Shown piece after piece: positions 16,031-21,525 of a DNA stretch of 32,682 nt. The translations under genes and the position numbers were made by a program. The notes beneath the pieces are model-generated. The model searched no databases. It saw nothing but the letters and a program-made list of their open reading frames with translations, and was not told the DNA's origin. Location: assembly GCA_027021335.1 (NCBI GenBank), contig JALUUO010000078.1:1-32682 (forward strand). The letters run 5' to 3'. Positions within the stretch are counted from its first letter, which is position 1, and each line of letters starts with the position of its first letter. This DNA is from Nitrospirota bacterium (GTDB lineage Bacteria; Nitrospirota; Thermodesulfovibrionia; SZUA-242).

Positions 16031-16627
16031 CTACTTCGTACTCATAAATTTATCGAGACTCTTTTTGACCTCTACCACAGTGCTGTTTACAATGTCCGTA
16101 AATAGCAATACCTTTGAACCGTCGGCAAGTAACAGGTTTAATTTAAACAGGGGCAGCGGCGTTGCATGAACACCGGGTTCAGCCATTTTTTGCCATGCTA
16201 TTATATCAGCAAGATCACTTTCATCCAGAGGTTCAAGCTCTTCAGCTTCCAAACCTGTAACGTCTTTTAAAAGGATCTCTTTTCGGTTTTTTCCGGAGAT
16301 TCTATCAGTGGTTATAACTACTGCTCCGTTCCCCTTGTCAACTATCATCTCGAGACTTCTTTCCTTTAGCAGCCAGAACCTGACAAGCAGATAAAAAGGT
16401 AAAAACAGGGCTATCGGCACTACCCAGCTATGCCACCCTGGAGAAGAGGCTCTCAACCAAAAAAGCAGGTAATAAACTGCACCTGCAGCACTGCCTGCAA
16501 GAAGAATCGATGCAAGGTCTCGGTTGTAAACCATCCGATTCAGAGCGCTTCTGTCTCCGCTTCTGTAGAGCACGGTTTTGAAGCTCAACTTGTCTCCATC
16601 TATACTGAGTGTATAAGCCTCTTTCAA
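16031..16627 (-). CDS. Unknown two-TM membrane protein at the end of the pyr operon
   Basis: I do not recognise this 198-residue protein. Residues ~39-58 (ILLAGSAAGAVYYLLFWL) and ~67-87 (VVPIALFLPFYLLVRFWLL) are two transmembrane helices with a short loop between. About 110 cytoplasmic or periplasmic residues follow, rich in beta-like strands (IVDKGNGAVVITTD, LLLADGSKVLLFTD). This resembles a PH-like or DUF-type membrane-anchored domain, but I cannot name it. The ATG at 16627 overlaps the carA TGA by four bases, so it is translated with carA and belongs to the pyrR-pyrB-pyrC-carA unit. The coupling implies co-expression, not a role in pyrimidine synthesis. No terminator is seen after it. Confidence 0.7.
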   Translation of the reverse strand: MKEAYTLSIDGDKLSFKTVLYRSGDRSALNRMVYNRDLASILLAGSAAGAVYYLLFWLRASSPGWHSWVVPIALFLPFYLLVRFWLLKERSLEMIVDKGNGAVVITTDRISGKNRKEILLKDVTGLEAEELEPLDESDLADIIAWQKMAEPGVHATPLPLFKLNLLLADGSKVLLFTDIVNSTVVEVKKSLDKFMSTK

Positions 16628-17757
16628 TACCTCTTTTTCTCCATCATCTTGGTGAATTTTTTGAAGATGTCGCGTGAATCGTTCGGTCCAGGCCCGGCCT
16701 CGGGATGGTACTGGACCGAAAAAAGTGGATATTCACGGTGTCTCATACCTTCCTCTGTATCGTCATAGAGGTTTTTGTGTGTCATGATTACGCTGTCACC
16801 GATCGAGTCCACAGAGACGCAGTAGTTATGGTTCTGCGAGGTAATTGCAATCTCTCCGGTTTCCAGGTCCTTAACCGGATGATTTCCGCCGTGATGGCCG
16901 AATTTAAGTTTGTAGCTTTTCCCGCCAAGGGCCAGCCCCAGTATTTGGTGCCCGAGGCAGATTCCGAATATTGGTTTTTTGCCTATCAGCGCTGCGGCGT
17001 TATCCACTCCATATGATACGGACTGGGGATCACCCGGGCCGTTACTGAAAAAAATTCCATCCGGGTTTAATTCCAATATTTCTTCAGCAGAAGTTTTAGC
17101 CGGGACCACGGTAACGTTGCACCCAGCCTCGACCAGAAGACGCAGTATATTTAGTTTTATTCCAAAATCATAGGCAACTACGTTCCAGGTTCCAGGCTTA
17201 GATGGTTGTTTATATCCTTCCGGCCATTTCCAGATGCGTCCGTTCCAGTTATAGCGCTCGCCTGTGGTTACTTTGCCGACCAGGTCAAGGCTTGAAATAC
17301 CCGGAGCGGATCTAACCTTTGAAAGCAGGTTTTCCGGTTCAAGGTCTACTGTAGATATAATTGCCATCTGCGCGCCTTTGTTGCGGATATGTCTTGTGAG
17401 CATTCGTGTGTCTATACCCTGTATTCCTACGATCCCTTTTTTCTCTAGATAAGCATTAAGAGAGTTTCCGGCCCGCCAGTTGCTGTAATGGTCAAAGGAT
17501 TCTTTTACGATAAATCCTTCAAGTTTTTTACTTGAGTCGTCTGCTGATTCTATATCTTCACCATTAACCCCATAGTTCCCCATCTGGGTATAAGTCATTG
17601 TAACAATCTGTCCTTTGTAAGAGGGGTCGGTCAGTATTTCCTGGTATCCCGTCATCGACGTGTTAAAGACAACCTCGCCGATGGTTTCGCCTTCAGCGCC
17701 GAAACTTCGTCCGGTAAATACCAGTCCGTCTTCAAGAACAAGGCAGGCTTTTTTCAT
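16624..17757 (-). CDS. carA: Carbamoyl-phosphate synthase small (glutaminase) subunit CarA
   Basis: The product is 377-379 residues, the normal size. CarA hydrolyses glutamine and channels ammonia to CarB for carbamoyl-phosphate, the substrate of PyrB and of arginine synthesis. The N-terminal domain has LVLEDGLVFTGRSFGAEG, FNTSMTGYQEILTDPSY and GIDTRMLTRHIR. The C-terminal class-I glutamine amidotransferase has SNGPGDP, the nucleophile elbow GICLGHQILG (Cys near residue 270) and the His-Glu pair in VQYHPEAGPGP. The start is ATG 17757, which overlaps the pyrC TGA; ATG 17763 is an alternative two codons upstream. It is downstream of pyrC in the pyr operon. carB is not in this window, so it must be elsewhere. 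Confidence 0.96.
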   Translation of the reverse strand: MKKACLVLEDGLVFTGRSFGAEGETIGEVVFNTSMTGYQEILTDPSYKGQIVTMTYTQMGNYGVNGEDIESADDSSKKLEGFIVKESFDHYSNWRAGNSLNAYLEKKGIVGIQGIDTRMLTRHIRNKGAQMAIISTVDLEPENLLSKVRSAPGISSLDLVGKVTTGERYNWNGRIWKWPEGYKQPSKPGTWNVVAYDFGIKLNILRLLVEAGCNVTVVPAKTSAEEILELNPDGIFFSNGPGDPQSVSYGVDNAAALIGKKPIFGICLGHQILGLALGGKSYKLKFGHHGGNHPVKDLETGEIAITSQNHNYCVSVDSIGDSVIMTHKNLYDDTEEGMRHREYPLFSVQYHPEAGPGPNDSRDIFKKFTKMMEKKRY

Positions 17758-19052
17758 AAACATTCGATCACATCTCCGTAAACTATCGTTTTAACCACGC
17801 GTCCTTTGAGGCGCAGGCTTTCAAACGGGGTGTTTTTCCCAAGGGAAACGAACAGGTCAGGGGCTACCTCCCACTCGAGTTCCGGGTCTATAATCACAAG
17901 GTTGGCATCAACTCCCTTTGCGATTTTTCTTGTTGGTATCGACATTATACCGCATGGATTGACAGACATAAGTTCTACAAGCCGATTCAGGTCGATGACT
18001 CCTTTAGAAACCAATCGTAAGGAAAGTGAAAGGGCGGTCTCCAGCCCTGATATTCCAGGCGGTGCGTTATCAAAGCCCATGGCTTTTTCTTCGCGGTGAT
18101 GGGGAGCATGATCTGTTGCAATCACGTCTATGGTGCCGTCGGTCAGCCCTTCGCAAACTGCTGCAACATCCTGCTTGCTCCGAAGCGGAGGATTTACTTT
18201 GGCTGCCGTGTTAAAACCGGCCACAGCTTCCTCGGTGATCGTAAAGTAATGCGGACAGGTTTCTGCCGTAACAGGCAAACCTCTTGATTTTGCCTCGCGT
18301 ATCAGCCTGATCGACCCTCTGGTCGATACATGGGCTACGTGTAACCTGCCCTTTGTAAGTTCGCAAAGAGCTATGTCACGGGCGACCATTACGTCTTCGG
18401 CGGCGTTTGGAATTCCGCGCAAACCAAGGCGGGTGGCAGTGATTCCTTCGTTCATAACCCCTTCTTCTGAAAGCCTGGTATCTTCGGCATGTGAAACAAT
18501 AGGAAGTCCGAAAATGCGCGAATATTCAAGTGCACGTCTCATAATAAGACTGTCCATGACAGGATTTCCGTCATCGGAAAACGCTACACAGCCGGCCTCT
18601 GCAAGAGCCGCCATTTCAGCCAAGGTTTCGCCTTTCTGGCCTTTTGTTATTGCCCCTACCGGATAGACTCTGCATGCCCCGTCAGCGTCGGCCTTTTTAA
18701 GTATGTAGCGGGTGATAGCAGGTTCATCGTTTACCGGCTGGGTATTGGGCATGCAGCAGACAGCGGTAAAACCACCTCTTACGGCTGCTTTTGTTCCGGT
18801 GGCTATTGTCTCTTTGTATTCGAAGCCCGGCTCGCGCAGGTGGGTGTGGATATCCGCCAGGCCGGGTAAAACCCATAATCCGGTGGCGTTTATCTCCTCA
18901 TAATCCGGTGGTGTGTTCTGGCCATTTTGAGGGGAAATATCCTCGATCCTGCCGTCCTGAACAAGAAGGTCCATAACGCCGTCCAGGCTGCTGGATGGAT
19001 CGATAACATGTCCGCCTTTTATAAGTATGCTTTTCTTTTTGCTAGTACTCAT
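17754..19052 (-). CDS. pyrC: Dihydroorotase PyrC (class I type)
   Basis: The 432-residue zinc amidohydrolase cyclises carbamoyl-aspartate to dihydroorotate. The metal site motif [15 protein letters not shown] lies near residues 65-80, followed by [43 protein letters not shown] and [28 protein letters not shown]. These are the full set for class I dihydroorotases, and the length also fits that class rather than the ~345-residue class II. The Zn-bridging lysine position is replaced by an Asp-containing DDGNPV block, as in other bacterial class I enzymes. The ATG at 19052 lies inside the end of pyrB (its stop is at 19042-19044). carA overlaps its own stop. It is the third gene of the pyr operon. 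Confidence 0.96.
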
Positions 19053-20082
19053 TTTTTTGTCGCCTGTCTTTTGTCCCTTGCCGCCTTTCTTGTGCAGGCA
19101 TAAGTTTGTGGTCTGTTTTCTGTCTTCTGTCTTCTGTCCTTTGCCTTCTTTCTTCCATCATTCTTGATGTTTTTTCTCCAGAAAGAAGGTATACAACAGC
19201 CATACGAACGGCGACCCCGTTGTTAACCTGGTCTAGAATCACGGACCTCTCTCCATCCGCAACTGCAGAGGATATTTCTACACCACGGTTTATTGGCCCC
19301 GGATGCATAACAATGGCGTCATCCTTTGCCATCGACAGCCGTCTGCCATTTAATATGTAAAGCTTTGCGTACTCGTGAATGTTCGGAAAAAAGCCGCCCT
19401 TCTGCCTTTCCCGTTGAACGCGAAGCTGCATTACCACATCAGCTCCTGATATTCCCTCTTCCATCCTGTGAAATACTTTAACTTTCGGCAAACTATCCAT
19501 CCCGGCCGGAATAAGTGTTGGCGGCCCGATCAGACGTACGTTAATTCCCAGCTTTCCCATGGCGTAAATATTGGACCGAGCCACGCGGCTGTGAGCGATG
19601 TCTCCAACAATAGCCACATCCAGGCCCTCCAGCCGTCCTTTGTGCTGGCGTATAGTGAAAATATCAAGCAATGCCTGGGTGGGATGCTCGTTAAAACCAT
19701 CGCCTGCATTTATTAACGAAGCTGTTACGTTATCAGCCAGTAGATGTGGAATGCCTGATGAAGAGTGTCTTATCACCACAATATCAGCGCCGTATGCTTC
19801 CATTGTTCGGATGGTGTCAAGCAGGGTCTCACCTTTTGTAACGCTTGAGGCTGAGATGGATACGTTGGTCACGTCCATGCTGAGCCTTTTGCCGGCAAGT
19901 TCGAAGGACATGCGGGTTCTGGTGGACGGCTCAAAAAACAGGTTCACCATCGTCTTGCCGCGAAGGGTCGGCACCTTTTTTATATCTCTTTCAAGAACGC
20001 CCTTGAATCCGGATGCAGTATCCAGTATCCGGATAATGTCATCCTTATCCAGCTCTTTTATGCCAAGGAGATCTTTTGTCAC
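19042..20082 (-). CDS. pyrB: Aspartate carbamoyltransferase catalytic subunit PyrB with repeat-derived C-terminal extension
   Basis: PyrB condenses carbamoyl phosphate and aspartate, the committed step of pyrimidine synthesis. The product is 346 residues, while the family is usually ~305-310. Residues 1-~304 are a complete enzyme: [19 protein letters not shown] (carbamoyl-phosphate site), [60 protein letters not shown] and [12 protein letters not shown]. The last ~42 residues are an unusual Arg/Gln/Lys/Glu-rich tail with a seven-residue period ([14 protein letters not shown], later [14 protein letters not shown]), encoded by DNA heptad repeats. The start is GTG 20082, five nt past the pyrR stop; GGAGG lies 12 nt upstream. 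Because pyrI is not adjacent, it is probably a trimeric enzyme without regulatory chains, but this is inference. Confidence 0.94.
19063..19153. repeat. Heptanucleotide tandem-repeat block inside the pyrB 3' end
   Basis: Two runs of 7-nt units are visible on the plus strand. Units at 19112-19153 read TCTGTTT, TCTGTCT, TCTGTCT, TCTGTCC, TTTGCCT, TCTTTCT. Units at 19063-19090 read CCTGTCT, TTTGTCC, CTTGCCG, CCTTTCT. The last four of the first run match the four of the second in order, so a 28-nt group looks duplicated. The repeats encode the tail of PyrB. Such heptads resemble the short tandemly repeated sequences known from intergenic DNA of cyanobacteria and some Deltaproteobacteria. Confidence 0.85.
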
Positions 20083-20086
20083 AAGA

Positions 20087-20641
20087 TCAGATATCCTCCT
20101 CTGTCTGCTCTCCCTCTTTTAGAAGCATAACAAGGTCTGTCTGCTCCTCTTCGGTGTAGTACACCTTTACATTCTCCTTGCGTGCTGTCGAAATGTTTTT
20201 ACCTACGTAATCTGCTTTTATAGGCAGCTCTCTATGCCCTCTGTCTATAAGAGCTGCGAGCTGGATTCGAGCCGGCCGGCCGAAATCCATCACGGCATCC
20301 ATGGCTGCACGGATGGTTCTGCCTGTAAAAAGCACATCGTCCACAAGCACAACCTTCATGTTGTTAAGCGAGAAGGGGATATCGGTTTCTTTTATTACCG
20401 GAGGATCTTTTCTGAGAGAAATATCATCACGGTAAAGAGTTATATCGAGTGTGCCCACAGGCGGGCGTTCGCCTTCGATGGTTTCTATTTTTTCGGCAAG
20501 CCGACCGGCTAGGTAGACGCCGCCCCTGTGTATTCCCACAAGACAGAGGTCTTTGCTTCCTTTGTTACGTTCGAGAATTTCATGAGCCATACGGGTGATC
20601 ACCCGGCTTATCTCTTTTTGGTTTAGAATCTCAGCAGGCAT
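20087..20641 (-). CDS. pyrR: Bifunctional pyr operon regulator/uracil phosphoribosyltransferase PyrR
   Basis: The 184-residue product has the phosphoribosyltransferase fold with the PRPP loop [21 protein letters not shown] near residues 95-115, [17 protein letters not shown] near 37-53, DITLYRDD, and the PyrR-type end [21 protein letters not shown]. PyrR binds UMP and a conserved RNA loop and lowers pyr operon expression when pyrimidines are ample. It also makes UMP from uracil and PRPP. It is the first gene of the operon. The ATG at 20641 follows a GAGGAGG Shine-Dalgarno that sits inside a terminator hairpin, and the leader has a matching PyrR-binding loop. This makes autoregulation by attenuation the likely control. 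Confidence 0.95.
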
Positions 20642-20675
20642 AAAAAAGCCTCCTCACCGTGACCGGAAAGAAGGC
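20642..20675 (-). terminator. Attenuator terminator hairpin overlapping the pyrR ribosome-binding site
   Basis: On the minus strand the 5' arm GCCTTCTTTCC (20675-20665) pairs with GGTGAGGAGGC (20658-20648). One T-T mismatch and two G-U pairs interrupt the stem, and the loop is 6 nt. Six T (20642-20647) follow immediately and the ATG comes next. The 3' arm contains the Shine-Dalgarno GAGGAGG, so the same hairpin would stop transcription and hide the ribosome site. Confidence 0.85.
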
Positions 20676-20731
20676 GCATACAGGTAGTAAAGTTCTGCAG
20701 TTTCTACTACCATACTTATGTCCACCTTTCC
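20665..20731 (-). promoter_or_regulatory. Antiterminator pairing for the pyr leader
   Basis: On the minus strand GGAAAGGTGG (20731-20722) can pair with CCTTCTTTCC (20674-20665), nine of ten positions counting one G-U. It uses the 5' arm of the terminator and the 3' side of the PyrR loop, so it excludes both. The enclosed segment holds a 7-bp hairpin (20683-20689 with 20705-20711). Confidence 0.75.
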
Positions 20732-20746
20732 CGCCTCTCAGGACGA
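20718..20746 (-). promoter_or_regulatory. PyrR-binding RNA loop (anti-antiterminator)
   Basis: On the minus strand GTCCTGAGAGGCGGG matches the Bacillus PyrR site core (GUCC-N-G-N-GAGGC). GTCC (20744-20741) pairs with GGAC (20723-20720) to form the stem. When PyrR-UMP binds, this structure should hold the antiterminator strand and let the terminator form. The element is known mainly from Firmicutes. Confidence 0.85.
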
Positions 20747-20767
20747 AGAATTAAAGGTACTTCTCTA

Positions 20768-20797
20768 ATTTAACCAGAGGAGAGGATTGACTGTCAA
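20768..20797 (-). promoter_or_regulatory. Sigma-70 promoter for the pyr operon
   Basis: On the minus strand TTGACA (20792-20797) is followed after 18 nt by TTAAAT (20768-20773). Transcription should begin near 20760 and produce a leader of about 120 nt that contains the whole PyrR switch. Confidence 0.75.
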
Positions 20798-20818
20798 CCC
20801 GAACTCTCTATAAAAATT

Positions 20819-20940: not shown

Positions 20941-21525
20941 GTGGTAAAATTAGCAAATTTTCTATTCGAAGCCGGAATGCTTAAGCGTACTCCGCGCTCT
21001 GGATTCCAGTTTTTGGGCTCTGGAGCCGAGTCTGTTGCAGAGCATATATTCAGAACAGTATACATAGGCTATGTTCTTGGTAATATGGATGGTGGGGTCG
21101 ATACCGACAGAATTATAAAGATGTGTTTATTTCATGACCTGCCTGAGGCGAGAACAGGTGATATGAACTATGTAAATAAGAAATATGTGACTGTGGATGA
21201 AAAAAAAGCTGTTGATGAACTGACAGGTTCACTTCCATTTGGAGAGGAAATAAAGACGCTGATCGAGGAATTTAATGCCTGCGAAACTCGTGAGGCGCGG
21301 TTAGCCGGTGATGCCGACCAGCTTGAGTTGATTTTAGCTCTTAAAGAGTACAAGGACCTTGGTAATGCGTATGCTGATGAGTGGCTTGAATTTGCCATTA
21401 AGAGGCTGAAAAGCGATGTGGCTATAGATCTGGCCAAAAGCATTCTCAGCACTGATTCCTCACTCTGGTGGTTCTCTGACAAGAGTGACTGGTGGATTAA
21501 TGCAAAAAAAATGTTAAAAAACTAG
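20941..21525 (+). CDS. HDDC2/YfbR-like HD-domain phosphohydrolase
   Basis: The 194-residue product matches the HDDC2/YfbR family of metal-dependent 5'-deoxynucleotidases. It has FLFEAGMLKRTPRSGFQFLG, ESVAEHIFRTVYIGYVL, CLFHDLPEARTGDM (the HD metal pair) and AGDADQLELILALKEY (the third Asp). All metal ligands of the HD fold are present. It probably dephosphorylates deoxynucleoside 5'-monophosphates in the cytoplasm, but substrate preference varies. The start is GTG 20941, chosen because it keeps the family N terminus (KLANFLFEAGML); the next Met is at residue 13, inside a conserved block. No convincing Shine-Dalgarno is present. It is divergent from the pyr operon, which would fit a role in nucleotide balance; that is inference. 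Confidence 0.85.
   Translation: MVKLANFLFEAGMLKRTPRSGFQFLGSGAESVAEHIFRTVYIGYVLGNMDGGVDTDRIIKMCLFHDLPEARTGDMNYVNKKYVTVDEKKAVDELTGSLPFGEEIKTLIEEFNACETREARLAGDADQLELILALKEYKDLGNAYADEWLEFAIKRLKSDVAIDLAKSILSTDSSLWWFSDKSDWWINAKKMLKN

Follow-up and report, generated by a model that had tools for sequence, protein, structure and literature searches.

PyrR is a textbook RNA-binding regulator on which work has been done almost entirely in Bacillota, and in Bacillus its switch sets an RNA-only antiterminator against a terminator. The pyr leader of a bacterium from Nitrospirota, a phylum on which little work has been done, raises the question of whether this Gram-negative lineage uses the same logic, as an earlier note on this DNA had proposed. 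Within the window, by which we mean the whole analysed stretch of 32,682 nucleotides, the leader probably attenuates the pyrR-pyrB-pyrC-carA operon in a manner that is gated by PyrR and depends on a ribosome. Across Nitrospirota, the main route of the switch seems to be a ribosome that translates a tiny leader ORF through the terminator, and not an RNA-only antiterminator.

The Nitrospirota pyr operon is encoded on the minus strand in the order pyrR-pyrB-pyrC-carA, with an Rfam RF00515 element directly upstream of pyrR (Table 1). As judged from its sequence, the pyrR product is a genuine PyrR, with best phmmer matches to solved PyrR chains at E-values from 1e-57 to 1e-63. The closest named relatives are Nitrospirae MAGs, with PyrR identities of 72% and 70%. 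Some further observations concern the surroundings of the leader. The 3′ end of pyrB contains a seven-base tandem repeat (TCTGTCT, 6.3 copies, 19112-19155), which encodes an unusual arginine- and glutamine-rich tail of RRQ repeats past the enzyme domain. An ORF of 198 aa with an apparent membrane segment (16031-16627, minus strand) overlaps the end of carA in the operon, and searches of NCBIfam and Pfam gave no match for it. A divergent gene for an HD-domain protein (20941-21525, plus strand; Pfam HD_3, YfbR-like 5′-deoxynucleotidase) adjoins the pyr promoter and is possibly another nucleotide-metabolism gene.

Table 1. Features of the pyr leader and operon in the window (all on the minus strand).
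Feature	Positions	Strand	Basis
sigma-70 promoter	20768..20797	-	TTGACA 20797-20792, 18-nt spacer, TTAAAT 20773-20768
Rfam RF00515 PyrR element, full length	20641..20761	-	56.7 bits, gathering score 54
PyrR-binding hairpin	20724..20758	-	Rfam alignment, covariation
Shine-Dalgarno-like AAGGTGG of the leader ORF	20722..20728	-	overlaps P1 3′ strand
leader ORF, MVVETAELYYLYAPSFRSR then stop, 19 codons	20654..20713	-	translation; phylum-wide enrichment
possible antiterminator	20665..20731	-	20731-20722 with 20674-20665 plus inner pairs, -20.5 kcal/mol
intrinsic terminator	20642..20675	-	stem 20675-20648, -18.1 kcal/mol by folding; T6 20647-20642
pyrR, bifunctional pyr mRNA-binding regulator / uracil phosphoribosyltransferase	20087..20641	-	NF003549, 246 bits, cut-off 138
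pyrB, aspartate carbamoyltransferase	19042..20082	-	NF002032, 411 bits
pyrC, dihydroorotase	17754..19052	-	TIGR00857, 430 bits
carA, carbamoyl-phosphate synthase small subunit	16624..17763	-	TIGR01368, 497 bits

The leader is compact, with promoter, PyrR hairpin, linker, terminator and pyrR ATG all located between positions 20800 and 20639 of the minus strand. The sigma-70 promoter of the earlier note is present and its -35/-10 pair is conserved: at most two mismatches to TTGACA-N16-19-TATAAT were found in 70 of 79 leaders from relatives and in 0 of 79 shuffled ones. Its position is conserved as well, the end of the -10 box being located most often 3 nt upstream of the PyrR element in relatives, and transcription is expected to start a few nt 5′ of the PyrR hairpin.

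A search with the Rfam covariance model, which had been proposed as a check, returned a match to RF00515 above the gathering score, and this is the sole such site found in the genome. The hairpin consists of P1 (ACCUUU/AAAGGU, 20758-20753 paired with 20729-20724) and an upper stem (UUCGUC/GGCGGG) that closes the hexaloop CUGAGA. These two are the consensus stems of the Rfam alignment. The postulated PyrR site is thus retained, while the GTCC/GGAC stem that had been assigned to it is not a consensus stem and was rejected. For the upper stem, 46 distinct Nitrospirota hairpins were aligned without using structure. It is paired in 94.9% of the cells, double changes occur in five of its six pairs (54 double-changed cells, compared to 12.6 in shuffles), and none of 500 shuffles matched its covariation score. 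Of the four pairs in the P1 core (CCUU/AAGG), the inner three are found in all 79 leaders and the outer one in 75 of them. Of the elements detected in relatives, 111 of 113 stand before pyrR and the other two are within 50 nt of a sequence end. The strong covariation of the hairpin bears out the proposal of a PyrR-controlled attenuator, and by sequence and structure the element of the window is a member of RF00515, with the binding of PyrR-UMP itself being predicted.

The earlier note had PyrR switches as described chiefly in Firmicutes and a few other groups. However, RF00515 was found in 31 of 61 relatives and in 208 of 296 genomes sampled across Nitrospirota (99 of 135 genera), so that a PyrR site is no exception in this Gram-negative organism and is ordinary for its phylum. 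Additional sites occur in Omnitrophota, Desulfobacterota-type and other lineages.

A feature that is absent from the earlier note is the leader ORF. It runs from an ATG at 20713 to a TGA stop codon (20656-20654) that is part of the 3′ arm of the terminator and precedes the ATG of pyrR by 12 nt. Its Shine-Dalgarno sequence is moderate, with AGGTG as the longest exact match. Both AAAGGTGG and a leader ORF are common to the three members examined of the family to which the window belongs (L001, L015, L253).

We analysed 113 Nitrospirota leaders, of which 111 could be parsed and 79 are non-redundant. A leader ORF was counted when a start codon occurs 4-16 nt past the AAGG of P1 and its frame is open to the terminator; the expectation was derived from dinucleotide shuffles of the linker with P1 kept. 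With terminator coordinates chosen by folding, leader ORFs were found in 102 of the 111 leaders (39 expected) and in 73 of the 79 non-redundant ones (29 expected). Because related leaders are not independent, the count was also made with one leader per family, which gave a mean of 27.1 of 30 with a leader ORF against 10.1 expected, the maximum of the null being 18 in 2000 draws. The openness is specific for the frame of the start codon: the frame of the first ATG at Shine-Dalgarno spacing stays open as far as the terminator in 44 of 48 leaders, compared to 22 and 25 for the other two frames (p = 1.7e-6 and 2.5e-5). Shine-Dalgarno matches of at least 5 nt precede 61 of 73 leader starts, while only 3 of 79 are found at a control position.

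The Nitrospirota leader ORFs show no codon-position bias (substitutions 38/39/38 by position), so that no selection on the peptide is visible, and they do not keep to one frame with respect to the terminator. Taken together, it appears to be the translation of the leader ORF, not its peptide, that is kept. The lack of a codon bias fits a role of the ribosome as a roadblock and gives no independent sign of translation. A peptide-sensing mechanism was also considered and found unsupported, the codon-position test of selection on the leader peptide being without signal. A variant of the layout is seen in L005, L006 and similar Thermodesulfovibrionia leaders, which have an AAGGAG of their own right after P1 and a GTG start. 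Their ORFs, often with a VSCK- or VKH-like start, extend across the entire terminator and come close to the start of pyrR.

We propose the following mechanism. The leader RNA opens with the PyrR hairpin, the 3′ strand of which would double as the Shine-Dalgarno sequence of the leader ORF. When UMP is low, PyrR would be off the RNA and a ribosome would start on the leader ORF, enter the terminator 5′ arm and stop inside the terminator, which could then not form. This ribosome would also open the pyrR Shine-Dalgarno sequence and, upon termination, would be delivered just upstream of the pyrR ATG, allowing translational coupling. When UMP is high, PyrR-UMP would clamp the hairpin and hide the start of the leader ORF. 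With no ribosome starting there, the terminator would form and most transcripts would end just before the pyrR ATG. Binding of PyrR and UMP, ribosome loading, read-through or termination, and coupling are all computational predictions.

The strongest competitor of this ribosome-dependent reading is an attenuator of the Bacillus type, in which, without PyrR, the pairing of 20731-20722 with 20674-20665 would on its own block the terminator and the leader ORF would be incidental. The pairing of 9 out of 10 bases described before is indeed present, an inner CAUA/UAUG helix adds to its stability, and it cannot coexist with the PyrR hairpin or with the terminator. The duplex (-18.6 kcal/mol) is one of the more stable ones among Nitrospirota, but it is no better than expected from composition (87 of 1000 shuffles were as good). 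For a test of covariation, the energy of each leader's matched duplex was compared to that of swapped duplexes. In Bacilli, whose leaders have the same hairpin, the use of such pairings is clear (-17.5 matched versus -14.3 kcal/mol swapped, p < 0.0005), whereas no significant difference was seen in Nitrospirota (-13.0 versus -12.7 kcal/mol, p about 0.1). Of the helices for which covariation had been called for, the upper stem of the PyrR hairpin covaries in Nitrospirota and no significant covariation is seen for the antiterminator, which we rejected as a conserved mechanism of this phylum. As it is the leader ORF that is conserved instead, the claim that the logic is the same as in Bacillus has become doubtful. 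A Bacillus-type attenuator would also leave the phylum-wide leader ORFs unexplained, and we consider it unlikely as the main account of the window. The pairing may nevertheless be an additional antiterminator in this species, and both mechanisms could act together in the window. The Bacillus mechanism could even dominate here, since the Shine-Dalgarno sequence of the leader ORF is moderate and the antiterminator is comparatively good.

Four leaders of family f4 (L008, L009, L017 and L026, three of them non-redundant) are without a leader ORF, which counts against the ribosome-dependent reading. Here all or most of the PyrR loop (TGAGAGG) can pair with the loop of the terminator (CCTCTCA), so that the antiterminator strand would be the PyrR loop. 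On this small sample, a few f4 genomes may have shifted to an RNA-only switch, which would be a change of mechanism within one family.

The same two tests distinguish phyla. In other non-Bacillota phyla (Omnitrophota, 'Deltaproteobacteria', Aerophobetes, Dictyoglomus and Actinomycetota), 19 of 20 leaders carry a leader ORF against 7.0 expected, and their antiterminators show no covariation (-10.9 matched versus -11.0 swapped, p 0.57). Five Desulfobacterota-type leaders are Nitrospirota-like, with leader ORFs in 4 of 5 against 1.6 expected. There is no excess of leader ORFs in Bacilli (10 of 29, 11.5 expected), in a second class of Bacillota (4 of 24, 5.9 expected) or in Bacillota overall (14 of 53, 17 expected), and in the second class the antiterminator test gave p 0.007, as in Bacilli a significant result. 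Chloroflexota are mixed, with leader ORFs in 14 of 15 leaders (8.3 expected) and p 0.08 for the antiterminator. We see about an even chance that, outside Bacillota, PyrR generally gates the entry of ribosomes to a short leader ORF with no constraint on its sequence, that Bacillota with their RNA-only antiterminator form a branch of their own, and that in relatives of the window the gate has moved from termination to pure translational coupling.

The end of the leader is closely packed. The terminator folds as had been described and is followed by its T tract. Its 3′ arm contains the pyrR Shine-Dalgarno sequence (GGAGG, 20653-20649), and the T tract touches the ATG of pyrR (20641-20639), both as claimed. 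A single hairpin controlling transcription as well as translation is anatomically possible and such a dual output is plausible in the window. A T tract in contact with the start of pyrR is, however, a minority layout, seen in just 12 of 108 leaders, most of them from families f1, f4 and f11. Among genomes of families f1, f4 and f14 without an RF00515 match, most retain the PyrR hairpin and a leader ORF, while the T-tract terminator is eroded in most. When near relatives are pooled with window-like leaders, all 15 leader ORFs are open in frame 0 up to the pyrR start, compared to 7 and 8 for the other frames (p 0.002 and 0.006). In 11 of the 15, the stop codon overlaps the pyrR AUG, an arrangement that is partly favoured because pyrR often begins with ATGNCTAA. 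This ORF layout in relatives supports coupled translation of the leader ORF and pyrR as the second output. Five leaders upstream of pyrR (L261, L262, L258, L260 and L264) retain the hairpin, have an eroded T-tract terminator, and have a leader ORF whose stop overlaps the pyrR start (AUGNNUAA). Their layout suggests purely translational coupling.

It could be argued from this packing, and from the relatives in which the T-tract terminator is lacking while the hairpin persists and leader ORFs overlap with the start of pyrR, that the window has mainly a translational switch of the kind described in mycobacteria, in which PyrR or the terminator stem governs access to the pyrR start and termination of transcription is minor. 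However, the window has a strong GC-rich hairpin with T6, nearly all leaders that match RF00515 keep a terminator, and the pyrR start is downstream of the terminator in most of them, so we give such a switch only a small chance, smaller than that of the Bacillus type. It is highly improbable that the excess of leader ORFs is a by-product of PyrR binding, with P1 requiring AAGG(AG) and any nearby start codon mimicking an ORF: AAGG is near-invariant in P1, so that a Shine-Dalgarno-like motif is given anyway, and codon-position bias is lacking, but Bacilli have AAGG too and yet no leader-ORF excess, and, relative to shuffles with an unchanged P1, there is an excess of start codons and of open frames that is confined to the frame set by the start codon.

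Should the leader-ORF form hold true for Nitrospirota and further phyla, the picture of antiterminator versus terminator would account for part of the family only, and PyrR would be added to the proteins that control transcription via a ribosome. A natural series that leads from termination to translational coupling would then be available in the related genomes. A search of open-access papers for PyrR in Nitrospirota, in Thermus or together with leader peptides gave nothing relevant and no report of the leader-ORF form throughout Nitrospirota or in further phyla, which is weak evidence of novelty.

Compared to known systems, the Bacillus pyr attenuator (RF00515) is alike in P1, the upper stem, the conserved loop, the location directly before pyrR and the intrinsic terminator. 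The Nitrospirota leaders differ in that a leader ORF which is begun at the hairpin enters the terminator and in that no significant covariation was seen for the antiterminator. In mycobacteria, PyrR binding limits the start of translation from the pyr leader, and this is translational repression; in the window, the start that would be occluded is that of the leader ORF, and the output would be termination or coupling. The pyrBI attenuator of E. coli also uses a leader-peptide ribosome, which prevents the terminator by following closely behind RNA polymerase. There, coupling is set by UTP-sensitive pausing of RNA polymerase and PyrR is not known to be involved, while the switch of the window would involve PyrR. 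Closest by mechanism is the ribosome-dependent attenuator that was reportedly proposed in 1997 for Thermus strain ZO5. It reportedly combines PyrR and a terminator with no antiterminator, and a ribosome translating a leader peptide would keep the terminator from forming. Beyond what is described for Thermus, the leader in the window has a possible antiterminator and, inside its terminator, a Shine-Dalgarno sequence for pyrR.
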